Shown piece by piece: positions 2,907 to 57,598 of a stretch of 64,000 nt of DNA; position 1 is the stretch's first letter, and each line of letters begins with the position of its first letter. The notes under the pieces were generated by a model. It saw only the letters and a program-made list of their open reading frames with translations, had not been told where the DNA came from and did not search any database. Both the position numbers and the translations under genes were made by a program. The DNA is from Sialis fuliginosa (Eukaryota; Arthropoda; Insecta; Megaloptera; Sialidae), in contig OY540811.1 in assembly GCA_961205875.1 (NCBI GenBank), positions 16,175,248 to 16,239,247 on the forward strand, read 5' to 3'.

Positions 2907-3479
2907 TCATTGCTTTTTTGACAAATTCAAGTCGTGAACCAAGTCGTTTAAGTCTTCTTGAGTTATGAAATGTGACTTGACTGGAATTTCTTTAAACTCA
3001 CAGTCATCGTCATCATCACCGCTCCGCGACTCGCTCGAAGTGGAAGGCTGTTGTGAATTTTGAATCTCAACGGCCGCAGGTACAATTGGTATAGGTAAAT
3101 TGTCACTATGAAGTACTGGTCTTTTAGTTGATTGTAAATTAGGGTAACTGACCATGTGTTTTTTCTTGAAATTAATACCTTTTATATCTATAAGACAGAA
3201 ATAACAATCCGAAACGTGATCTGTTGGTTCGGTCCAAATCATGGGTACCGCAAACGGCATATGGCGGCGGCCTTTCTTCCAATCAGTTAAATTCTTTACA
3301 CAAGTTATGCAACAAATATGAGGGGCCCAAGATTTGTCTTGATGAGCCACAGAGAAACCAAAATACTGGCGATAACTCTCTAACACAAGTGTAGTAAAAT
3401 TTCGTCTTTGTTTTTTGAAGGTTAAATCACCACAAATATAACAAAATGAATCCGGATCGTTATTACACTTTCTCGACAT
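2907..3479 (-). pseudogene. Repeat-associated Cys-rich protein, N-terminal 190 residues of a broken copy
   Basis: An open frame starts with Met-Ser-Arg-Lys-Cys at 3479. It carries a Cys-x2-Cys pair near residues 17-20, a C-C-I-T-C cluster in the mid-fifties, another Cys-x2-Cys near residue 95 (D-C-Y-F-C), an acidic run of five Asp around residue 155, and a D-L-V-H-D-L-N-L-S-K motif at the end. I recognise it as a multi-copy, uncharacterised protein family of insect genomes, probably zinc-binding, that behaves like repeat DNA. The TGA at 2907-2909 is premature. The frame continues after it as E-L-L-G-S, as expected for the family, then meets a second stop. The final part of the family protein resumes directly in another frame (next entry), so the central part is deleted. 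Its function is unknown. Confidence 0.65.
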
Positions 3480-3825
3480 ATTTACACAATCTCAACAATT
3501 ACTTATAAAGCACTAAATTTGAATGAATACAAAAATAATTAATTTTATGTCTATTTATTCGCGTCCGTTTACTTGCGTTTATTGCCCTAGTACAGATTAT
3601 GCTTATCAACACATCACAAAAAATTTGAGGCCAATCGAAACAAAACTACTGCAATTTATTAATGAGGGTAGGTGACTAAAACAGTATTAGCTATGAGAGT
3701 TCGTGTGGCATGACTAGTGTTGACCAGTGTTATCTACGTAATTAACAACTGTCAATAATTAAGTTTTATATAACGGTACGGAACCCTCATGACGCGAGTC
3801 CTACTCGCACTTGTTCACCTTTTTA

Positions 3826-13707: not shown

Positions 13708-14731
13708 GGGTTCCGAAGTACGTACTACGTGAAATGTTTGGAACCACTTACAGGTGCATTTTTAAGTTAAAGTTAAAATATAAAAAAGTGTCAAGTTCTA
13801 CTAATTGAGATCTATATTTTGACATACCACATGCCTAGATATCAAAAAAAAATAATTTATGACGCCCCTCCCTATAATTCCAAAATTTAAAATTATATTG
13901 TTGACTTTAGTATTTGTCGTTGGTAGTCCTACCAAAGCCTCGTTACAGAGATAGAGAGGGGGGGGACAAAATAAAACACTGCTTTTAGCCCCCTACAGGC
14001 GCCATTTTTGAGTTAGAAAAAAAATAAAAATATGGTCATATTCTACGAATTGAGATGTACATTTTGACATATCACATGCCTAGATATGAAAATAAAAATT
14101 TTAAATTCTCTTACACCCCTCCCTATTATTCTAAAATTTAAAATTATATTATTGAGTTTAGTATTTGTCGTTGGTAGTCCTACCAAAACCTCGTTACCAA
14201 ATTTTTTTCAGATTTTTTGAGCCGGTAGTTACAGAGATAGAGGGGGGTGGACAAAATAAAACACTACTTTTAGCCCCCTACAGGCGCCATTTTTGAGTTA
14301 GAAAAAAAATAAAAAATAGGGGCATATTCTACTAATTGAGACGTAAATTTTGACGTGCCACACGTCTTGGTATACAATTTTTTTGTTTTTTTGGATTTGC
14401 TTTAAAGCCCCCTACAGGCACCATTTTTGATTTAGAAAAAAAATAAAAAAAGGGTCAAATTCGGCTTGTTTGGTTATACATTTTAACGTGCCACATGCCT
14501 TGGTATAAAAAATTTTTTTTTTTTACCTAGCTTTAGCTCCTTATTGCCACCCCTGAAAAATTATTTATTCAATAAATTTGTACATATTTTGCTCGAGAGT
14601 ATCATTTTACATGTTCAGTAAAAATTTCAAGTTTCTAGCTTATATAGTTTACGAGCTATTTAGCTTTGAGTGAAAAGGACGGACGGACGGACGGACGACA
14701 AAGCGATATTAATAGAGTTTCTTCGGAACCC
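13708..14731. mobile_element. 1.0-kb TIR element with internal tandem copies, TAA target duplication
   Basis: The terminal repeats GGGTTCCGAAG (13708-13718) and CTTCGGAACCC (14721-14731) are perfect inverses, flanked by TAA on both sides (13705-13707 and 14732-14734). The interior is built from partial tandem copies that start near 13743, 13987, 14271 and 14406. Each has a CCCTACAGGCGCCATTTTTG-like core followed by an A-rich run and a block ending near ACATGCCTAGATAT. The right end has a GGAC x4 run (14679-14697) before the terminus. It has no coding capacity. A 3-bp TAA duplication is what PIF/Harbinger elements leave. The GGTTCCG ends relate it to the repeat at 2077-3825. Confidence 0.75.
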
Positions 14732-20654: not shown

Positions 20655-23600
20655 GTAAGTATTTTTAAAGAAATTGTGTTGTGGTGTGAGTAAATATATG
20701 TGTGTATTAGGGGCGTATCAATAATTTATATGGGATCAAATATCCAAACATATCTTAAAGTAAATGTAAATCGTTAGAAATATACTTTTTATTGATTTGC
20801 CAGTAGTGAATTATTTTACAAAAACATTTGAGAAAATTTTATTTATACATAAACACAAAATTGTTATAGTTACGTATCTCATATTTAACTACCAACATGT
20901 AAGTATATGTATTTATATGTTATGGTACGTCTTGACTTGAGCATTTTACTACCAACGACTCGAATGAGTCGAGCGCTCCGAGCAATTTTCGGCGAACACT
21001 CCGAATAAAAGATTGCTGCGTTCGCCACGTTTATCGTGCTCATCCTGTTGCTACAATTGTTTTATGTTTAAAAATGGATTTATGTGTGGCAAGAGCTGCT
21101 TCTATTTAAAAAATACAAGGAAAGTTTAGCAACGGAAATTGTTTTCCATCAGTAATTTTTGTATTTATCATAAAAATAATCATTGCCGAGAATTCTCTAG
21201 TAAAGACTATTTTTCATATTCATTTCGAAAATTTAACAATTTACTCTATCGTATTCCGTTGTAAATTACTTTAATTTAATTTAATAAATGTAAACAATAT
21301 CACCAATAATCACCATAAACGCTTCACACTACGAATACAACGAAAACTAAGAATAGTGAGCAAATTATTTCTTTGATCTTTTACGATTTACCGACTAGCT
21401 TAAAGGCCTCTATACACCACCCAATCTGCAGGGCCGATTTGTATGGCTGTAGAGTGAGTGTACTGCATATTTGGTCGTTTATAGGCAAATTGGGCCGATT
21501 ATTCCGCAAATAGTCGGCCCGATTTGCCTATACACGACCCAATATGCAGTACCCCCACTCTACCTTCCTACAAATCGACCCTGCAGATTGGGTGGTGTAT
21601 AGAGACCTTTAGAAAATGTTCGGCCTGTTCGTTCTCTTTGGAGATACATATGTACTGACTATACATAGACGAATATTGCTCGGTACGCTTGGCTCGTTCG
21701 GTTCATTCAGAGTAAAATGATCAAGTCAAAACGCACCATTAAGTTAACCTACTCGTTTTGATTTCTGAACGTCTCATATGGCCTATATTTATTTTTAATA
21801 CAAAACAGCACTTATGAAAGACTATTAAACTATGACATAAATAGCATATTTACGTGAAACATTTATTAGTTTTTATTAGAAAACAACACTTATGAAAAGC
21901 TATTTTTACTTTAAATATGACATACATAGCACATTTGAGTGACTCATTGTGTAAAAAAGTCCTTCAATAACTGAGTAATTTTCACCATTTTATATATAGT
22001 GATATCCCGCAGATAAAATGTTGCAACTAATCGAGAAAAAAAAATCTTTATGCACGTTATAGAATTTCAAAAAAAAAAAACAAAACATTCTATTTAATTC
22101 AATAAAAATTTACTGTCGTTAGAGTGTTGCTAGATGCGTCTTATTTGGTAAAAAAAATCTCATATGCTCTACACTCTGTGTAGTTACTAATATGTATGAT
22201 AAACTCGTGTATAATTAAATTTATAATAATTGTGGTTTTCGTATTAATAATTCAATACTGTGTAAATTATTTAAAATATCTAATACAGAAGGGATACTAT
22301 ACTCAAAGTGCATATTGTTATTGTTTATCTATTTATAAGTAATATTTATCTAATCATAATGCATTAACAAATATAACATTTTATTGTTGATTGATGTGTA
22401 TGTATAATATACCTATCTATAATTTATCTAATTTTAACTAGTTTTCTATTTATTTTGTTACTTTCATTTCAATTTCAACACAAATGTTTCTTAAAACTAG
22501 ATAATGAATAATTAAACTAGGTAAATGTTTTCGATAGTATAAATATTAATATTACATCGAAAACGTTTGAACATACGTTTATAATGACATATGAATTAGT
22601 TACACAATTAATTGTCCAAAGTAGTGAGGTTATTTTATCTAAATTATGCGCTGAAAAATTAAAATGTTATAAGAATAAATACATTTTGAAATTATACAAT
22701 TTATTATCTTTACTAAATTACAGTATAGGATACAAAATATTTTAAACACATTTTTTTTATTTTCAGTTTTTGTACAAATACAATTATAAAATAGAGATAG
22801 TAGAACTGAAAGTTAACAAAACAGAAAAAAATACACATCATGACAAAATAGAAAATCTTATATTTAAACCAGCAGAAAATCCGAGGATTCATGTAAAGCC
22901 ATTCGAACAAATCCATAACAAAAAAGAAAAACTCAAAAGCGATACATGGCGTCCAGAAAAACCAGCAGGAAATTTAGGCCACCATTATTCAGCATACTTC
23001 GATGACAGACCCCAGGTGAAAGATGATCCTAACATCTTTGGAGTGGTTAGAGTTATAGGGATTATGCCATTGTCAATGAACAGTAAATCGCTAAATTGCC
23101 ATCTTAAGTATAAAATTTTCACAAACTCTTCCGACATAGAAATAACTGTTACAACATCCTCTGTATCCGCAATTCGAGAAAATTGGGGCATGCAATACTC
23201 GCCATTTTTTATTTTATGTCCCGTAATGAAAAACCAAAACGCTGATATGGCCTTACATCCATCATCTGTGAGAATCAGCGACACGGATAACAGTAATAGT
23301 CCAACACAGTTTATTGATATCCACTACCAGATGAACAAACCACTGAAAGCAGAAGAAATTGCTGTATGTGTGAAACCAGTATATTTCAATTACAGTAGAT
23401 CTTTACAAATGATTGAGTTTATTGAATTCTATCAGCAATTGGGCGTCTCTCATTTCTTCTTTTATAATAAATCGATGACCGAAGAGGTCAGCGATGTGTT
23501 GGATCATTATATACAGACTGGAGTGGCAACAGTTACAACGTGGAACTTGTACGGATATAAATATGAAAAAGATATAAGAGATGACGGAATTTTCGCGGCG

Positions 23601-25517
23601 TTAAACGATTGTTTATATAGGAGCAGTTTTTATTATAATTATAAGTACGTCGCTAATGTAGATATAGATGAATTTTTGATACCTGAAGACCAAGATACGT
23701 TGAATGAATTTATTGAAGTTTTAGAGACAAAATCTCACAAAAATGCAGGGTTTATTATTAGAAATGTATTTCATTACTTGTTCTGGTGTGATAAAAAATT
23801 AACAGGTCTGTTTTTAGCGTATTTTTAAGATTAACTAATTGAAATATGTTTTTTTAATAATTGCAGAACCAAATCTTTTGACGCAAAACTGTATAAATAG
23901 AACGGAAAATATTTTACCAGCTCATTCGAGGAGTAAATACATTATAAGAGCTCGGGATGTAGTGGAAATGGGAAATCATTTTCTTTGGGAATTTATTCCA
24001 GGTGAGAATTTATCACATATAAATAGGAGCCCAAGTTGTGTATTGTTTAATTAGAACATAAACTTAACATAAGTATGTGATTATCAAGAAAATATGTTAC
24101 AAATTATATCAAAATTATGATATCCTAATATATGAAATTCAAAACTCAATTTAAAACGAAAAAAAATACATAAATCAATTTCCACACTTATCTTATTAAC
24201 GAGTTTTTTTAATACTAATAAAGTTATAAATGTACCCTCCTGAGAATTTATTATAAGTGAAATATGGAAATATATTTTCGTATGAGTCCATTACAGCTAA
24301 TGGGTGGCTGCGACGACATTGTGATATGAATGACGAGGACAAAAATTTTACAGGACTAAAAGGAGCGTTAACTTTTTATCCTTGCCAAAAGCTGTTAGAG
24401 CTTTTAAGAGAGCACAACTTTTTTCTACTGCTTAAAAGAGTTTGAAAGTAATTTCATAATATCACTGGATCTCTTATACTTTCTTAAATGTGATGATAAA
24501 GTAAGAGATTATGAAGGATTTTAACTTATCGCGAGAATTTTTTACGAAAAGTATGACAATCGATAAAAGATGGATTATGTATTATGTATATAATATGCAG
24601 ATAATCCATTTTTACATATACATAATAGGTAAAAATATGAGATCAGAGACAAATTAAGATGGAGGTTCAGAAATGTTATTCTTCTATTTGAAACGGGTAA
24701 AAGGAAATATTGAATTTACTGAATGAATTTTCAAAATTTTATTTTGATGATTTATTTAATTTATAAATATAAGAATTATAATTTTATTTTTAAATATTAT
24801 GTATTATGTATATTTTAAGTACTGTGATATTTGCACGTGAATCCAATTTGAAGATAAATATTTAAATGTTGTGTTAACGTTTAACTGCGATTATATGCAT
24901 ATTTACAAATGATACATATTTTTGCGAATATATTACGTATGTAATATACAAAATATACATTATACATAATACACTCCCAAATGTAAATATTGGTATCAAT
25001 ATTCATTCCAACTTATACACATAGTAGAATTTAAATAATTTTAACCGATATAAAAATAGACACATAAGTACTAATATAACATTACACATATCTATTTTTT
25101 TATTTTTTTGTTAACAAATGTATAATATTTTGCCATTTTGAATAAAATGAATATACAATTAATTGTTTCTGGGCGTAAACCATCTTAATTTAGCTACAAC
25201 TGCAGTCAAAATTTTACCAATAGATATATTATTTGAAAAATTACCATATAATCTTAAAGATCGGCCAGGAATTCAGGAATATCCAGATTTTTTTATAATA
25301 AAAATAAATGTTATTTACAGGATTTGGTGAGATGTACGTCCCCACAGAAATGTGCCTCTCCCATCACTACCGTGCCTGTGAGGAATACGAAGCGAATTGT
25401 AGGAAAAGGGCGGCTGTCAGGGATAAGACAGCGCTGAGGTTCGGAGATAAAATTGTCTCCAGAGTGAAAGCAAAGTGCGAAAAAATATTTCACAATCATA
25501 CATGTCCACCGAAATGA
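20601..25517 (+). CDS. GT92-family (DUF23) glycosyltransferase, four coding exons, 474 residues
   Basis: Coding exons are 20601-20654, 22767-23805, 23867-24001 and 25321-25517 (TGA stop). The splice sites are consistent: AAT|GTAAGT, TTTTCAG|TTT, ACAG|GTCTGT, TTGCAG|AA, CCAG|GTGAGA and TTACAG|GA. Phases are 0, 1 and 1. The protein is a predicted type II Golgi membrane protein with a hydrophobic anchor in residues 3-18, a variable stem to about residue 213, then a GT92 domain from E-E-I-A-V-C-V-K-P to about residue 430. The D-I-D-E-F-L motif (residues 317-322) is the family's metal-binding D-x-D. The C-terminal part holds R-A-R-D-V-V and H-H-Y-R (424-427), and the tail has several Cys. Characterised GT92 enzymes, such as the worm galactosyltransferase galt-1, transfer galactose to N-glycan core fucose. 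The substrate here is inferred by family only. The length is normal for the family and I see no damage. Confidence 0.88.
20923..21738. mobile_element. PIF/Harbinger-like non-autonomous element, 816 bp, TTA duplication
   Basis: The ends TGGTACGTCTTGACTTGAGC and the inverse of TGGTGCGTTTTGACTTGATC match at about 25 of 28 positions. Similarity continues inward through CCGAGCAAT. TTA flanks both sides (20920-20922 and 21739-21741), the 3-bp duplication typical of PIF/Harbinger. There is no transposase frame. A second element sits inside it at 21403-21609, so this one inserted first. Confidence 0.8.
21403..21609. mobile_element. Palindromic MITE, 207 bp, nested in the PIF-like element
   Basis: The first 31 bp (starting AAGGCCTCTATACACCACCC) match the inverse of the last 31 bp at 30 positions. 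The arms continue to pair, with moderate divergence, to a short loop near 21500-21515. TA flanks both ends. Almost the whole element can fold into a single hairpin. It has no coding capacity. Confidence 0.85.
22767..23805 (+). CDS. GT92 coding exon 2: stem and most of the catalytic domain
   Basis: This exon encodes residues 19-364. The first 190 or so residues are a Lys-rich stem and a poorly conserved N-terminal domain with Cys at 129, 169 and 219. The catalytic half begins at about residue 214 and includes F-N-Y-S-R-S-L-Q-M-I-E-F-I-E-F-Y, the Y-Q-Q-L-G-V-S-H-F-F-F-Y-N segment and D-I-D-E-F-L. There is no stop upstream of the acceptor-defined start. The exon ends in phase 1 at ACAG|GTCTGT. 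Confidence 0.9.
23867..24001 (+). CDS. GT92 coding exon 3
   Basis: This completes a Glu codon and encodes residues up to 409, including N-C-I-N-R-T-E-N (possible N-glycosylation site at N-R-T), S-R-S-K-Y-I-I-R and W-E-F-I-P. It is flanked by TTGCAG and GTGAGA and separated from exon 2 by only 61 bp. It has phase 1 at both ends, so skipping would preserve frame but remove catalytic-domain core. Confidence 0.85.
24002..25320. other. GT92 intron 3
   Basis: 1.3 kb of AT-rich sequence. It contains one frame (24257-24445) preceded by a CATTACAG acceptor-like site and reading N-G-W-L-R-R-H-C-D-M. This is suggestive of a transposase scrap but not assignable. Nothing else is recognised. Confidence 0.4.
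25321..25517 (+). CDS. GT92 coding exon 4: C-terminus
   Basis: This encodes residues 410-474. It includes Y-V-P-T-E-M-C-L-S-H-H-Y-R-A-C, the family's C-terminal His-His-Tyr-Arg motif, then a basic, Cys-containing tail ending C-P-P-K before TGA at 25515-25517. Codon use is noticeably less AT-biased than in exons 2 and 3. Confidence 0.88.
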
Positions 25518-33247: not shown

Positions 33248-33488
33248 CTATCCAGAACTATTATCACCGTTGCGTACAACCGGTTCCGTCGAATTAGGTT
33301 GATCATCAGTCGTATGTGTTGAGTCGCCGGCAGAGTGAATGTTCTGCGCCTGGGACGGCTTCAACTGCGCCGCCGCTTCTGGGTTTCCGCCACGGTCGTA
33401 TAAGTAACTTGTCGTCCGTCTGTACTCATGATCCCCTCCCCTAGGTCTGTAGTAGTACTGCTGCTGTCCGCCGCTACCGCCTGCAGAG
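33248..33488 (-). CDS. Arg-Tyr-Asp gene, last coding exon
   Basis: This completes a Gly codon and encodes 79 residues. It opens S-A-G-G-S-G-G-Q-Q-Q-Y-Y-Y-R-P-R-G-G, then a Y-R-R-T-T-S-Y-L-Y-D-R segment, and ends in a Ser/Thr/Asn/Asp-rich tail (N-G-D-N-S-S-G). The acceptor TGACAG|C is chosen because it joins in frame with exon 3 (phase 2). The acceptor-like ATTCAG a little upstream (about 33512) would shift frame. Confidence 0.75.
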
Positions 33489-45400: not shown

Positions 45401-48400
45401 TAACTTTTTATTTTCTTTAAAGTGATTGAGAAATAGTATATAGTCCTATCCTACTCGCTCATTAAAAAAAAAAATATTTTAATATGGAACATGCAATTAC
45501 GGCTAGTTGCCTATTTTTATTTTTATTTTTTTATTTTTACCTTGCCACTCTATGCTATTTTTTTATATTAATTGCAGTACTTAGAACTAACAAGTCTGTT
45601 TTGACAGCCCTGAGAAATTCGATCCAGACAGCTTGTGTTTGCAAAACTCACTCTGAGCAACTAAATTCCGAGAAATGATATTAGATTCTCTGCTTCATAT
45701 ATTCATTAAGATCGCAGATTGAAATTATACAAACTACATCACAGACAGCTTATAAAAGCTTACGTGTATATTAAATGTTATATTTATGAAAAAAAACCTA
45801 AAATCAATAGCTTATCTGAAGTTCAGGCTGACGCAAATTTTCTAATATACGTACACACGGCGTAGAATTTACATTACATCCACATGTTACTCGGATGTTT
45901 TCATTTAAAAATTCTATTTTTCAGTTTTTGTACATACATGCAAATGAGAGTCGGAATTTTAATAAAATATATGACACGTTTGGGGTACACGACAAAAAAA
46001 CATGAGCTGAATGAAAATATCAACGGAGTTTTGTGATTTTTGTATGTATTTAACGGATATTCAAGATAAGTTTAATTTAAAACTCATGTTTGTTTAAACG
46101 CAATTAATAGTTTTATTTACTTTTGTAACTGTTAATATTAAAAACAACTTGGTCTGCATCACTTTGTGAAATTTTAATCAATTTTTGTATGATTATACTT
46201 ATACATCTTTACTATTTTAATTAAAATAAATATTTTGTAATAATATATATCAGATATGTAATTAATTATATGTATTTTTGCTGATAAAATATAGACTCCA
46301 TTCATTTCAAAACTTCAAAATAATCATGTTATCCTCAAAGGAGATAGATTTTTTTTAATACAAATAAAATAGTTTGTTTTAATAGGTATATTTAGATCAG
46401 TTACTGCCAAATTGTGTGCCGCGAAAGATTTAAAAGTATAGGTGTATATTAATAGTACAGGCAATAAAGGGAAAAATTGACCTGTTTTTGGAACAAATTC
46501 GGAGTGCGATGAAAAATTTGGCCATATAGTACCCATAATAGTACGTCTACAAAAAGACCCCATCCATAGACATTGTGGAAAAAAAATGACAACCGTTTGA
46601 AGTTTCTAAGCCAGTGGAATCCCGTCAACGATTTCAGGACATTGTGACGTCACGTCCATTGCCATTATATAAATATGTTATTGTATTATAATACATTTTT
46701 TTTTGTATTTTTGTTCTTACTAGTAAATTACATTTAAATTTTGTTGAGATTTTTATTTGGTGTGCCGTGAAATAAATCCTCCCCGCTTAGTGTGTCATAA
46801 GGTAAAAAAAATTCGTTGACACTAGTTTAGATGCTTAAGTTAATCTTATGACACCATATAAAATCTAACATATATTTACATACATATGTATATTCATGTA
46901 TTTACCAAAAACCAACAAAACTATTTTGATTTTTTGTATATTATTATAAAAAAAATTTATTATTTAATTATTTATTAGATTTTTTTATCTTTTCGTGAAC
47001 TACTTTTAACAGACACGCTAGGCTACAAGCTTAGAAGAAATAGAAAATAAGTACCATTTTTAATATTAGTGCTAAATCCACATTTTCTACTTAATGTAAT
47101 AAAAATTATTTTATTGTCCTACCTCTTAGGTGTGTCACTGTTGCTATACATGAAAACAAAAAGAGAAAAATAACAAAATAGCTTTTTGTTTCCATTTATA
47201 AATTCAACCTAACTCCATCGCATAAATAGATTCTTATACAAAACGTAAACAAAAGAAAGGAATAAAAATGCTTACCCTTGATCCTTCCAGTTGCCGCCAT
47301 AGTCACGATCGTCCTTGCCGTAAGTCCAGCTAGACGCATAACCCCCTCCCCAGTATCCTGTGGGGTCTGGTTTTCCAGAAGCGAAGTAATATCCTCTTCC
47401 GCTACTATCGAATCCAGAAGTTCCTCTGTTCGTCTCATCCCACGGCCTGTATCCATTCACATCGTTTGAGTACCACCGGTTCTCGTTGCTTCTCCAACCA
47501 TCTTTGTCATTTCGAGTGTCGTACCGATTGTATCGTTTGTCGTCATAACGGTCATTTGGATCGTATCGGTCGTACGGTCGGTTTTCAGTCCGGTAGTCGT
47601 ATCTTGTGTCGTATCGGTTGTCATAACGATTATCATAACGATTATTGTCGTATCGATTATTATCTTGTCGATTAGTATCGTACCGATTATTGTCGTACCG
47701 ATTATTATCGTACCTAGTAGTGTCGTATCGGTTGTCATAGCGATTGTCGTATCGATTGTCATTGCGATTGTCATTGCGATTGTCATATCGTTGATCATAT
47801 TGCGTGTCATATCGGGTATCGTATCGGTTGTCGTATCGGGTATCGTATCGGTTAGTGTCGTAACGGTAGTCGTACCTTTAAAAATAAATATAATTTAGTA
47901 TCGAAACTGATTTTTTAAATTAAAATGTTATAGCACTACTAAAAAATAAATTAAATTGCATCTACTGAAGAAAATATTACAGAATAGGGGAACAGCAGCT
48001 AATTTGGCGCAGCAGGTAGATTGACGCACCCAGAAAAACACTAATTTAAAAGTTTATATGTTTGAAAACTATTGATTGGACTGAGGTCTAACCGATACCT
48101 ATTAGTGTGAATGATTTCATTGATTATTATTGTTTATTTATATTTGATTGGAGCGAAACCGGACTGAGACCGGCTCGAAAGCGGATCGATAGTGTGGATC
48201 AAACCTATAGGTATGCCAGGTTCGATCACACTTCAGTAAAATATTCTTTGCACTATGCTGTATCGATTTTGTGTATTAATATTATTGAATTTAACAATTA
48301 TGATAGTTAAAAAAATGAAAAATTTATATAATTACACAAAAATTCTCCCCTCCTCCACGAATTTCAGAGGTGTTCGCCATTGATTAATATTATTGTATAA

Positions 48401-51400
48401 TATTTTTTAGCATTTTTTGTAAAAATAAGCAAATGTATTCTAAATTGGATATAATATAATGAATAAATAATAAATTTTCTATTAGTTAATAAATAAAAGA
48501 ATTTTACATGCACAATTAGATAAAGATCATTTTCATCCTGTGAAAATCTGTACTAAAATCGAGTGTGCCACATTAGTTAATTTATGAGTTATATTGCAAA
48601 TATTCAAACTACTGAAAAAAAAATTCAAAATCTTTTTCATATTTTTTTTATATTTAATAATATTCTTAGGTGCGCCACATTCGCAGTTGTTTCTCTACTC
48701 TTGATTTTATAGGGTCACAAAAATCACCGCACACGACATTATATACATATATTCGAAGATTAGTCAAGAGTGTACTGTATTCAAATTCTTGCTGTCTACA
48801 CAAATAAAAGCGATTTCTTGAGAGAAAAAGAAACTGAAATATTTGTATTTGCTTACTTTTTAGATGAATCACTGTTGACACTTGAAAACAAAAAGAAAAA
48901 CACAAATAACTTTTTGTTTTCATTATTGAACTATTTAATAAAGTTATAATCAGGTGTTTTTATAAATAATGTAAATTTTCATAATAATGCATGCTGATTA
49001 TTCAAACGTAAATTTCATATTGCCCTAAATAGATACATATGTATATGACCCTTCTAAAATTAAATCGTCCTACCTTTTTGGCGATTCACTGGTACTATAT
49101 GAAAAGAAAAAGAAAAATATAATTAATTTTTTCTCCCACTTCCCAAAGCAGGCATTTACAGAATTTACAATCCTACATTACTTAGATAATTACTTACCCT
49201 TTAGTAGAATCACTGCTATGTATTACATGAAAATAAAAGAAATACAAAATGACCTTTTGTTTTAATTGTTATCAATTAAAACATTTACCATATAAACATT
49301 GGAAGGTATTATAGAATTTATATTACAAATTATTTTGTAAGTAAATTGTATATTTTGGCGAGTGTCCCTAACAGTTACACGTTACTGCTACATCAGTTTA
49401 AAAAAATGCTTGAATTATATAAAAAAAATTTAATTAATATAATATATAGACTGAGAATCATACTTTTTCCGATCATTTTCGCGATAAAAGAGTTAAAAAG
49501 CTAATATTTTTTGAAAAATGTTTTATTTTATTATAGGAATTTAAAACTAATGGCAGTACCAAATTCGTCGGAAGTGTTTTTTGTAGTCGAATTATTTATT
49601 TTTATGAAGAATTTTAAGTAGGTATTCATAACCTTAATAATTGATCAAGTTGTAAATATTCATAATGACACCTTAATTATAAAAGTTCTTGGGTGATTGT
49701 GAAGTTTATTATGATTTCCAAATCGACCAACATTGTGTCCCACAATAAAGTAAATATATTTTTTTAAATGCATGCATTGACAACCATAAGAACCCGGATT
49801 TTGCCCAGAAACCAAAGATCAATTAAAATTATTTTCTGGTTAAAAAAACATATATATATATAGTGTGAATAAAAAAAAACAAAAAAACACACACACACAC
49901 AATCAAAATTTTCGGAAAATATTCGATCTACGAAGTTCAAATTAGATATAAAAAAATTGAACGTAAATTGAAACAAAATTTATCTACACATATCTAAAAT
50001 TGAATTCGGCCATCTTTGTTTTTTAGATCTACGTGGATGTTTAAATTAAATTTTAGATCTACGTATAGATCAAATTAGATACACGCAGATATAATATTTG
50101 ATCTAGGTAGATCGAATTATTTTTTCCCGGATAAAAATTCCATTTACCTATCATATGACGGTCTCCTACTTTCATACCGGTTTCTATCCCATCTGTCATC
50201 ATATCTTGTAGGCCTTCTTTCGTCATATCTATCATAATCAGATGTTCTCTTCGTATCATAATCCCTCCAATTATTACTATTATAGCGATAATCATAAGCC
50301 TTAGTATCGTACGTATCGGTACATCCTCTACACTTTCTATCGGTCTCCTGGTCTCTACCGGTTCTAGATCGCCCGTCTACGTATCCGGTACCGTACCGGT
50401 TGTAATAGTAGCGGTTGTCTCTTGCTGTTCTGTATAGACTCGGCGATGAAGTGCTAGAAGTGTGGCTGTTAGAATCACTTGTGGTTGGTGCTGAATGGGT
50501 AAACGTGAAGGTAAGCACCAATACGAGAAGTAGGTGGCGGTGGGATTTGATTAGTGCCTGAAAATATACGAATCAAGTTGTAATTTTTTTTGTATATATC
50601 GTAATTATTGTTTTATGAGTTTTATAATGTTCAAGTTTGTCCTTATATCTCGTCTCGTCTCAAAATTTAAAGCTGAAATTTTTGTCATTTCTTAGGTTAC
50701 ATCATATCATCAAAATTTAAGCCGGTCTCATTTCGTATATATCGTAACTGTGACCGAGACCGAAAATTAAAAAAAAATTTAAATTATGTTCATTTAATAT
50801 ATTTAATTTCAAGAAATAAAAACAACAGTTTCTTAGAAAAAAGGAAGAAGAATATGCTTAATAAATGTTTAAGAAAAAAAAAATGTTTTATTTATTTTCT
50901 TTTGCAATTTATTGAATCTTAATCTTAATAATAATTACAGAAAATAATTTACATGAAAAATATACATAAGTACATATTATTATATAAATGTACACAAGTT
51001 ATGTATGACAAATTAGTAAAAAGGTAAAATCAATTTAGTTTCATTCTCCCAAACCCATTTTAACATAAGAACCAATATTATCTTCATATTTCATCCTACA
51101 CGTAGCGTATAGTGCATAGCATTCAATCTAACAACTGGTTAAAAAAGACCAGCATCAATTTTCCAATTACGTTCATACTCGATAAACATTTGATTCAATA
51201 TCCAATCCTGTCTGCAATGACAAATTTCATTAGAAATATATGCGTCGATAATGAGATTTATCTGTAAAATCTGCGTTTAGTTGACAATTTCCGGACGTCC
51301 GTTTCACGCTATACTAATTAGTAGAATGTTTAAATTAGCATTGTAAATGAGACTTAATTAATTCAATGCACTTTTAGATTAGAATCGAATTAAAGTTTTT

Positions 51401-57400: not shown

Positions 57401-57598
57401 AATTATATAAATAAATTATTTTTAAAACTTTTAAGTTTTTTTAAAAAATAAAACATTTTTATGAAAGATTCTAAAAAAATAGTTCATTTTTGATTTTCTG
57501 AATAGTGCTGATAGTGAACATTTTCAATCATAAAAATCTAGTTTAATTAAAATAAATAAAATAAATAAAATATCCGCAGTATCACTTACGGGAGCCAT
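33248..57598 (-). CDS. Predicted secreted Arg-Tyr-Asp repeat protein, multi-exon, 419 residues without microexons
   Basis: Constitutive coding exons on the - strand are 57598-57590 (Met-Ala-Pro), 50557-50148, 47875-47276 and 33488-33248 (TAG stop). Splice sites are CCC|GTAAGT, TTTTCAG|GCA, ATAG|GTAAAT, TTAAAG|G, AAGG|GTAAGC and TGACAG|C. Phases are 0, 2 and 2. The protein has a signal peptide (hydrophobic core residues 12-18; probable cleavage after T-H-S at 25), a Ser/Thr-rich then Tyr/Arg-rich segment with the only Cys pair C-R-G-C (79-82), Arg-Tyr-Asp repeats (141-261), an aromatic/Gly-rich segment (266-340) and a hydrophilic tail. I do not recognise it. A cuticle or extracellular matrix role would fit the signal peptide and Tyr-rich low-complexity sequence, but that is inference. 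Four in-frame microexon candidates lie in its last two introns. Confidence 0.8.
40671..40970. mobile_element. 300-bp MITE with about 40-bp terminal inverted repeats
   Basis: The left end reads CCGGTATTATAAAGGACCTA and goes on to ACAAAATTTGTTAGCTAGCAA. The right end is the inverse of CCGGTATCATAAAGGACCTA followed by ACAAATTTGTTAGCTAACAA. The ends differ by about four positions. The terminal repeat is itself partly palindromic (TTTGTTAGCTAACAAA). There is no coding potential and no clear target duplication. Confidence 0.8.
41115..41358. mobile_element. TA-flanked MITE nested in family B copy
   Basis: The left end CAGGTAGAAAAGTGACTTGG and the inverse of the right end CACGGGTAGAAAAGTTTACT align with small gaps. 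The following GGTCAAGAAAATCTTGTTT block also pairs with its partner. TA precedes and follows (41113-41114 and 41359-41360). Removing it restores a contiguous family B centre comparable to the 8370 copy. A mariner-type origin is suggested by the TA duplication. Confidence 0.75.
41431..41722. mobile_element. hAT-type MITE, 292 bp, perfect 8-bp target duplication
   Basis: It is flanked by GTCTAGAC at 41423-41430 and again at 41723-41730. The left end CAGGAGTCACCAGAC and the inverse right end (CGGCGGTCACCAAACTACGG) resemble the hAT/Charlie-like terminus CAGGGGTCCCCAAAC. GGGCCGGA and GGCCGCGGGCCG blocks sit just inside. The 8-bp duplication with a central TCTAGA is characteristic of hAT. The inside is AT-rich and non-coding. 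Confidence 0.9.
47123..47143 (-). CDS. Candidate microexon D (21 nt) of the Arg-Tyr-Asp gene
   Basis: This lies between exon 3 and the last exon. It is preceded on the - strand by TTTTCATGTATAG and followed by GTAGGAC. Between them, 21 nt join in phase 2-2: with the GG left by exon 3 it reads G-N-S-D-T-P-K and leaves AG, which the first base of the last exon completes to Ser. No frame disruption results from inclusion or skipping. Its sequence and upstream flank are related to the three candidates at 48857-49215. Confidence 0.6.
47276..47875 (-). CDS. Arg-Tyr-Asp gene exon 3: repeat domain and aromatic/Gly segment
   Basis: This exon covers residues 140-340. The first 120 residues are built from R-Y-D-N, R-Y-D-T and N-N-R-Y-D units in more than 20 imperfect copies. 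Then come D-G-W-R-S-N-E-N-R-W and an aromatic/Gly-rich stretch (G-R-G-Y-Y-F-A-S-G-K-P-D, G-Y-W-G-G-G-Y) ending W-K-D-Q-G. It has no Cys. The DNA shows the same periodicity (CGATAC/CGATTGTC-type units), so this part likely expanded by replication slippage. Its acceptor is TTTTTAAAG|G and its donor AAGG|GTAAGC. Confidence 0.85.
48080..48215. repeat. Family B palindromic MITE, partial copy
   Basis: The shared block TTTATATTTGATTGGAGCGA and the terminal CGATAGTGTGGATCAAACC match the right half of the copy at 8370-8579. The left terminus is not preserved. Confidence 0.65.
48857..48880 (-). CDS. Candidate microexon C (24 nt)
   Basis: On the - strand GTTTTCAAG precedes and GTAAGC follows. In phase 2-2 it reads S-V-N-S-D-S-S-K plus AA, completed to Lys by exon 3. 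An alternative acceptor nine bases inside (CAACAG) would give a 15-nt version in the same frame, S-D-S-S-K. The acceptor is weaker than that of its relatives because the aligned position reads GTGT instead of ATAG. Confidence 0.5.
49074..49094 (-). CDS. Candidate microexon B (21 nt)
   Basis: It is preceded by a long polypyrimidine tract and TTTTCATATAG, and followed by GTAGGAC, the same donor as candidate D. Phase 2-2; joined to the AG of exon 2 it reads S-T-S-E-S-P-K and leaves AG. Confidence 0.6.
49198..49215 (-). CDS. Candidate microexon A (18 nt)
   Basis: It is preceded by TTTTCATGTAATACATAG and followed by the consensus donor GTAAGT. Phase 2-2; joined to the AG of exon 2 it reads S-S-D-S-T-K and leaves GG. 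It lies about 930 bp downstream of exon 2 in transcript order, followed by B after only about 100 nt of intron and C after about 190 more. Confidence 0.6.
50148..50557 (-). CDS. Arg-Tyr-Asp gene exon 2: rest of signal peptide and N-terminal mature region
   Basis: This starts in phase 0 at TTTTCAG|GCA and reads A-L-I-K-S-H-R-H-L-L-L-V-L-V-L, which together with Met-Ala-Pro makes a typical secretory signal. The mature part is Ser/Thr-rich (T-S-S-T-S-S), then Tyr/Arg/Asp-rich (R-D-N-R-Y-Y-Y-N-R-Y-G), with C-R-G-C at 79-82 and another Arg/Tyr/Asp-rich stretch at the end (R-R-P-S-Y-D). It ends ATAG|GTAAAT, phase 2. Confidence 0.85.
51755..51990 (+). repeat. Dispersed repeat family C, copy 3
   Basis: Starts AGCTGACCCGACAAATG and runs through AAAAATCAGACCATAAATAC, a TACCGGGTC block and ATATGGTGTGAATATGGCTT. 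Same orientation as 6183-6560, opposite to 27890-28300. The GC-rich outer edge seen in the other copies is missing. Confidence 0.65.
52010..52150. repeat. Short repeat with a C15 run
   Basis: GACTGTCCATTAAGTACGAA is followed by a run of 15 C (52033-52047) and, about 80 bp on, by TTTACGTAAGTAACG and CCCCCTTCCTC. From memory the start resembles the 'CTGTCCATTAATTACG' end of small repeats common in insects. Only one end is clear. Confidence 0.4.
52279..52808. mobile_element. Mariner-like MITE, 530 bp, TA duplication
   Basis: The left end CAGGGTGTCTCCCGAGAAAG and the inverse right end CAGTGTGTCCCACGGGAAAG continue to match through GTGTTNAAACTAATCAG, about 46 bp with roughly ten differences. TA flanks both sides (52277-52278 and 52809-52810). 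It contains no transposase. The CAGGGTGTCNCA start is typical of mariner relatives and similar to the end near 1522-1545. Confidence 0.85.
53350..53838. mobile_element. Long inverted repeat: about 144-bp arms, about 200-bp spacer
   Basis: The left arm (53350-53493) and the inverse of the right arm (53694-53838) agree at all but a handful of positions. Shared blocks include ATATTTCCAAAAGCCCGTCC, AGCACTGGAGTTTGGAAATC and GTCGAGTACAGAGCATACTC. The arms are less AT-rich than their surroundings and carry similar short open frames, which only reflect the duplication. The class is unknown and no target duplication was found. Confidence 0.8.
54246..54780. mobile_element. TIR element, about 535 bp, with subterminal AATTAGTGA repeats
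   Basis: TTCTAAAACTGAATTAGT at the left is mirrored by ACTAATTCAGTTTTAGAG at the right. Several AATTAGTGA/TCACTAATT-type units lie just inside (54297-54345 and 54720-54765). It is non-coding. Confidence 0.6.
57590..57598 (-). CDS. Arg-Tyr-Asp gene first coding exon (9 nt of coding)
   Basis: ATG-GCT-CCC followed directly by GTAAGT. The start context is good (A at -3, G at +4). The three codons alone mean little. They are supported by the exact phase-0 junction with a hydrophobic signal-peptide exon that lacks its own ATG, and by the TATA box 169 nt upstream. Confidence 0.75.

Follow-up and report, generated by a model that had tools for sequence, protein, structure and literature searches.

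We analysed a stretch of 64,000 nucleotides (nt) from the megalopteran insect Sialis fuliginosa (contig OY540811.1 of assembly GCA_961205875.1, positions 16,175,248 to 16,239,247; hereafter the window), which has a G+C content of 28.5% and belongs to a genome of 392 Mb in 20 contigs. Its minus strand carries a gene for an Arg-Tyr-Asp repeat protein that is probably secreted, and the introns of this gene hold four very short segments, m1 to m4, with the anatomy of duplicated microexons. The large exons that frame them lie, like the microexons, on the minus strand. Exon 2 (50148-50557) is an open frame with a phase 2 end and encodes the hydrophobic core of a signal peptide together with the first Arg/Tyr/Asp-rich part; exon 3 (47276-47875, phase 2-2) encodes the Arg-Tyr-Asp repeats, followed by a Gly/Tyr/Trp-rich tail; and exon 4 (33248-33488) is an open frame that contributes a coding part with the stop codon. 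All three are joined in phase 2 (junctions at 50148, 47875/47276 and 33488).

Between exons 2 and 3 lie m1 (49198-49215, 18 nt), m2 (49074-49094, 21 nt) and m3 (48857-48880, 24 nt), and m4 (47123-47143, 21 nt) follows exon 3. Read with their neighbours, they would contribute S-S-D-S-T-K-G, S/G-T-S-E-S-P-K, S/G-V-N-S-D-S-S-K and G-N-S-D-T-P-K, respectively. Four such segments had been put forward in a preliminary description of the window, and their positions, lengths and flanking AG and GT proved exact; reconstruction of the reading frame bore out their phase 2-2 character and the arrangement of three before and one after exon 3. If spliced, all four are of microexon size (internal exons of at most 30 nt). 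The introns inside the array measure 103, 193 and 132 nt and the outer flanking introns 932, 981 and 13,634 nt, as calculated from the coordinates. Every one of the 16 combinations of inclusion and skipping is open with one terminal stop, just as that description had foreseen, giving 416-444 residues counted from exon 2; inclusion of all four adds 28 residues. The donor of m1 matches CAGGTAAGTA at 8 of 10 positions and the other donors at 6-7, with m2 and m4 both at 6. Each microexon also contains the motif CAGTGA, a feature absent from the preliminary description, and the CAG of this motif forms a second acceptor 3, 6, 9 and 6 nt past the first AG in m1 to m4. All four second acceptors are in phase, an outcome with a chance probability of ~0.012 (1 in 81) if the copies are independent. 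Use of the second CAG, which is in phase in every copy, would shorten the microexons to 15 nt (49198-49212, 49074-49088, 48857-48871 and 47123-47137).

An AG and a GT alone are weak proof of an exon, because 50 segments composed of an AG, 12-30 nt and a GTRRG or GTAAA donor occur on the sense strand of the two introns. When a pyrimidine tract was required before the AG, an unsupervised screen of the same 16 kb, blind to mutual similarity, returned nine segments, of which eight are m1 to m4, each with its two acceptors. All eight have a length divisible by three and are open in phase 2; the ninth is a 14-nt segment at 40087-40074. On the antisense strand of both introns the same filter yielded a single segment, not a multiple of three, and across 94,680 strand-nt from elsewhere in the window, taken as four pieces, it yielded six, three of them in frame and open. 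Twenty control stretches from the same genome, read on both strands (400,000 strand-nt), contained 37 segments, 15 of them multiples of three and 10 of these open, from which ~0.4 in-frame open segments would be expected in 16 kb of intron. On these sequence counts, the four candidate microexons are not the product of chance.

The four segments also resemble one another. In leave-one-out scoring of a 17-nt core, with the donor left out, m1 to m4 ranked 3rd, 1st, 2nd and 2nd among 127,965 positions; m1, m3 and m4 were outscored by a site at 852 on the minus strand, and m1 also by one at 48679 on the same strand. The core peptides are SDSTK, SESPK, SDSSK and SDTPK, and the variable core columns fall at the first, second and third codon positions 2, 0 and 4 times. 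Tested against random change, the core conserves residue type (p 0.0005, BLOSUM null) and favours synonymous differences (p 0.01). Similarity extends into the 60 nt upstream, where six of six pairs are alike (the score was reached by 0-2 of 500 shuffles), and on both measures the duplication claimed in the preliminary description holds. It is at or near chance from 66 to 125 nt upstream (36-288 of 300 shuffles), and it is found in none of the six pairs 9-68 nt downstream (305-416 of 500 shuffles reach the score). Because similarity is limited to these parts, either the exon, donor and upstream element would have been conserved as the remaining sequence diverged, or that remaining sequence was left out of the duplication. 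The homology and codon-level constraint that the sequence displays strongly support duplicated, symmetric phase-2 microexons; as homologous neighbours of the same phase they are organised like tandem duplicated exons, with m4 set apart by exon 3. The inserts had earlier been described as acidic, which their composition contradicts, each microexon having one Asp/Glu against one or two Lys/Arg. N-glycosylation finds no support either, the Asn standing, by reading, in N-S-D and not in N-x-S/T, and phosphorylation or O-glycosylation of Ser/Thr is possible.

The family appears to be confined to this locus. The next core-plus-donor score in the window is 12.1, against 27.2-32.0 for the four microexons under a model trained on these four, so that no further member emerged there. 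Across the genome the core-plus-donor pattern has four exact matches, namely m1, m2, m4 and a site at position 221785 of contig C6 that has no pyrimidine tract, and a reversed-pattern control has none; m3 misses the pattern because it ends in AAAAA before the GT. A genome search with m3 and its flanks, in which very common words were skipped, matched just m3 itself and m4. A dispersed repeat or mobile element is unsupported, since the genome searches place the microexon family in this gene alone.

In the conserved upstream element, a block of purines is complementary to the polypyrimidine tract. Block and tract pair at 12 of 13 positions in m2 and at 13 of 13 in both m3 and m4; this complementarity lies in the sequence, and the fold of the elements is predicted from it. 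Folding gives hairpins round the tract at 49100-49145 for m2 (-12.0 kcal/mol), at 48883-48922 for m3 (13 contiguous pairs, -14.3 kcal/mol) and at 47144-47201 for m4 (-13.8 kcal/mol), the last taking in the AG of the 3' splice site as well. The arms of m3 are TGAAAACAAAAAG opposite CTTTTTGTTTTCA. These tract-hiding hairpins, too, were absent from the preliminary description. In m1 the block and tract are present (49228-49265) but their pairing is broken: 10 of 12 positions match, of the three G-C pairs in m3 it lacks two, and folding does not form the stem. With 100 or 250 nt of context, and at 15, 25 and 37 °C, the mean stem-pair probability is 0.66-0.99 for m2 to m4, whereas that of m1 does not exceed 0.20. 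A stem covering the polypyrimidine tract is thereby predicted in three of the four copies, m2, m3 and m4. The blocks of m2 and m3 differ at 7 of 13 positions with 12 of 13 pairs kept; five of the changes turn A-U into G-U, one is a double change from C-G to G-C and one is a T-T mismatch. A search for YTRAY branch points upstream of the microexons found no site common to the copies. In the genome, the hairpin-arm pattern has four matches at three places, two of them at m3 (one per strand) and one each at m4 and at a site on contig C2. This last site (34070727-34070765, minus strand), the sole other place with exact hairpin arms, resembles a 3' splice site in its own right, with a loop that contains CTAAAAC, a TTTTCAG that follows the tract and then 27 open codons in one frame before a stop.

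The blocks of m2 to m4 pair with the tracts of the other copies as well, at 11-13 of 13 positions. Pairing of this sort would suit a mutually exclusive choice of the docking-selector type, in which the duplicated arm of one copy binds the tract of another and the exons that lie between are looped out; duplications that copy stem-loop arms are proposed, in sections of PMC6071210 and PMC9013439, to create such competition. Judged from the pairing of blocks and tracts and from exon layout, we regard this as improbable, since each block is 14-20 nt from the tract of its own copy and local pairing dominates the folds, no reason of frame or length calls for exclusion, and one copy, m4, lies beyond exon 3. 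That m1 is without a stem could be taken as a sign that the segments are relics, either once-used microexons or duplicated pieces of intron, which are no longer spliced. Very little weight falls on this reading, given that cores, donors, frame and in-phase acceptors have been kept, and that the intron 3' of the donors and farther upstream is without clear similarity.

We favour, with moderate confidence, an interpretation in which these are old duplicated cassette microexons in the gene of a probably secreted Arg-Tyr-Asp protein, m1 being open and m2 to m4 gated by hairpins. Four paralogous microexons would have arisen by old duplication of a unit ordered as purine block, loop, polypyrimidine tract, first AG, in-phase CAG, 15-nt core and GTRRG donor, in which the core would encode (S)-D/E-S/T-x-K. 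Ordinary exon recognition needs exons longer than these, so that control would rest with the upstream element. In m2 to m4 the purine block would pair with the tract and block U2AF, which would lead to skipping by default, and opening of the hairpin by an RNA-binding protein, a helicase, warmth or fast transcription would lead to inclusion. The unpaired m1, which has the best donor, is probably the copy most often included, that is, the default copy. Since every outcome is in frame, the protein would gain or lose Ser/Thr-Lys inserts of 5-8 residues that flank the repeat domain. We infer from this anatomy that the microexons are spliced, that their splicing is regulated and that the protein is altered by it; the preliminary description had allowed for independent inclusion, and we favour regulated, not independent, use, since hairpins are predicted at m2 to m4 and the donors of m2 and m4 are weaker.

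As controls for the hairpins, 415 tract-AG sites were taken from both strands of 264 kb, made up of the 20 control stretches plus all of the window except 46900-50400. None has at least 12 pairs with at least three G-C pairs, a three-G-C condition that was chosen after the stems had been seen, and 13 of the 415 have at least 12 pairs when the condition is dropped. That choice of condition weighs against hairpin-gated cassettes, and so do a number of further points. Shuffle z-scores of the fold energy are modest (m1 +0.80, m2 -1.03, m3 -2.31 and m4 -1.64). Among 37 tract-AG sites in the window, m4, m3 and m2 rank 5, 8 and 10 by energy, and their ranks by the pairing probability of the tract are 11, 18 and 4; m1 was excluded by the filter used. 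A-rich blocks beside U-rich tracts pair easily in a 28% G+C genome; the stems of m3 and m4 are not independent, because they share descent; and a microexon can persist without a hairpin, as the conserved exon m1 shows. The dissimilarity downstream of the donors could also arise if the duplication had not included the downstream intron, and relatives or an orthologue of the exon 3 tail were unconfirmed in viral and prokaryote contig collections.

The microexons might be real and constitutive, with the upstream element acting as a strong 3' splice-site region of the kind that tiny exons require. The form that includes all four is open too, array introns of 103, 193 and 132 nt would allow all of them to be joined, and all four copies share a similar upstream element, even m1, which has no stable hairpin. 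Against this, a tract inside a 12-13 bp stem would be odd for a constitutive site and is matched by 0 of the 415 controls, and the donors of m2 and m4 make just 6 of 10 consensus matches, so that we consider constitutive use rather unlikely. These exons could also belong among the neuronal microexons under the insect eMIC (Srrm234) programme, with which they share short in-frame exons and AG exclusion zones, here of 36, 36, 27 and 36 nt. UGC is absent, however, from the last 40 nt upstream of all four microexons, and the outer introns of 932, 981 and 13,634 nt contrast with the very short introns of eMIC exons described in part of PMC8797185, which leaves this the least probable of the explanations considered.

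Hairpin-gated cassettes also admit a more speculative extension, which we advance tentatively. The four copies may stem from a single module of ~70-90 nt, made up of masking hairpin, tract, both in-phase acceptors, 15-nt core and donor, so that one signal that opens RNA, for example temperature or a single binding protein, could act on several inserts together; the state of the hairpin might in addition choose between the first AG and the downstream CAG. With each of the four microexons skipped, long or short, up to 81 in-frame forms of one protein would be possible. If the gated cassettes are real, combinatorial mini-exons, tract-masking hairpins and exon duplication would be joined in one gene. 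The copies would then be natural replicates of one splicing module, three with a hairpin and one without, in the same transcript, and would allow a clear-cut test of whether the inclusion of a microexon is set by its RNA structure. They would also represent a class of exon that is often missed by annotation in repeat-rich secreted proteins. A literature search on tandem, duplicated or clustered microexons turned up no such array, which does not prove that none has been published.

The remainder of the gene appears to be unique in the genome, with a single match each for exon 2, the exon 3 tail (searched as protein) and exon 4, and a single match for exon 3 searched as DNA. In Pfam at an E-value of 1 or better, exons 3 and 4 returned no family and exon 2 one family below the cut-off (E 0.31); the exon 3 tail gave four matches to solved structures at E 0.7-0.77. 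For the start of the gene we scanned 13.4 kb upstream of exon 2 for an ATG at most 25 codons from a phase-0 GTRAG. One of the two candidates found, at 57590-57598 on the minus strand and ~7 kb from exon 2, would encode M-A-P before a phase 0 donor GTAAGTG, has an ACCATGG context and adjoins on its 5' side a 300-nt bin of 42% G+C. As exon 1, this candidate would complete the signal peptide MAPALIKSHRHLLLVLVLTFTFTHSA. Elsewhere in the window, an open frame at 22746-23828 on the plus strand contains a glycosyltransferase family 92 domain (Pfam E 1e-33). A Cys-rich open frame of 194 codons at 2907-3491 on the minus strand has no Pfam match, and we take it to resemble proteins common in arthropod genomes. 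A 133-base tandem repeat is present in about two copies at 14272-14524. In the wider genome, TTAGG repeats occur at many places, including near the end of contig C1, as befits an insect or other arthropod. Low G+C and phase-2 microexons are reminiscent of aphids, which carry carotenoid desaturase genes, but a search for this family gave 11 weak matches with none above the cut-off. Seven of these 11, all to the start of the family, cluster at ~8.747-8.783 Mb on contig C13 and are probably the nucleotide-binding parts of tandem oxidoreductase genes.

The alternative exons of fast skeletal troponin T (TNNT3) are tiny and are used in many combinations. Exons 4-8 of this single-copy gene form a run of adjacent alternative exons, mostly of one phase class, according to part of PMC2447309, and the likeness to m1-m4 lies in neighbouring alternative exons of shared phase within a single gene. 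TNNT3 differs in encoding a vertebrate muscle protein without homology to the probably secreted repeat protein described here, in which copies lie on both sides of one exon; within the portions of the sources available, a stem-loop is described at its exon F (PMC4176163) but otherwise no hairpin-masked tract. The bicycle, KQY and KHI genes of aphids and the schistosome MEGs also encode secreted proteins from many small or symmetric exons, and bicycle internal exons are nearly all of phase 2 (excerpts of PMC9168663, PMC7495047 and PMC5825161). Here, by contrast, four microexons stand amid large exons that each match the genome once, and the comparison carries no demonstrated homology. A bicycle gene was considered and rejected: the introns after exon 2 are of phase 2, but the exon structure is dominated by large exons of 410 and 600 nt, and the multi-gene family typical of such genes is missing. 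Insect neuronal microexons that depend on eMIC are short exons governed from the upstream 3' splice-site region (part of PMC8797185), and differ from the present array, which is duplicated, has long outer introns and is without the UGC motif. In the Dscam, 14-3-3zeta and Mhc clusters, exons and structured intron arms were duplicated together (part of PMC6071210). Competing structures of that kind are conceivable here, because the blocks pair with the tracts of other copies; those clusters, however, consist of mutually exclusive exons with a docking site, whereas the present copies are microexons, three of the four with a local predicted hairpin. In cardiac troponin T exon 5 (MBNL1/U2AF65) and CLCN1 exon 7A, a stem-loop occupies the polypyrimidine tract and blocks U2AF65 (parts of PMC4176163 and PMC10790352), and the stems predicted here would likewise take up the tract before a short exon. 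Each of those cases concerns one exon, whereas the Sialis gene presents a duplicated array in which the predicted stem occurs in three copies and is absent in the fourth.

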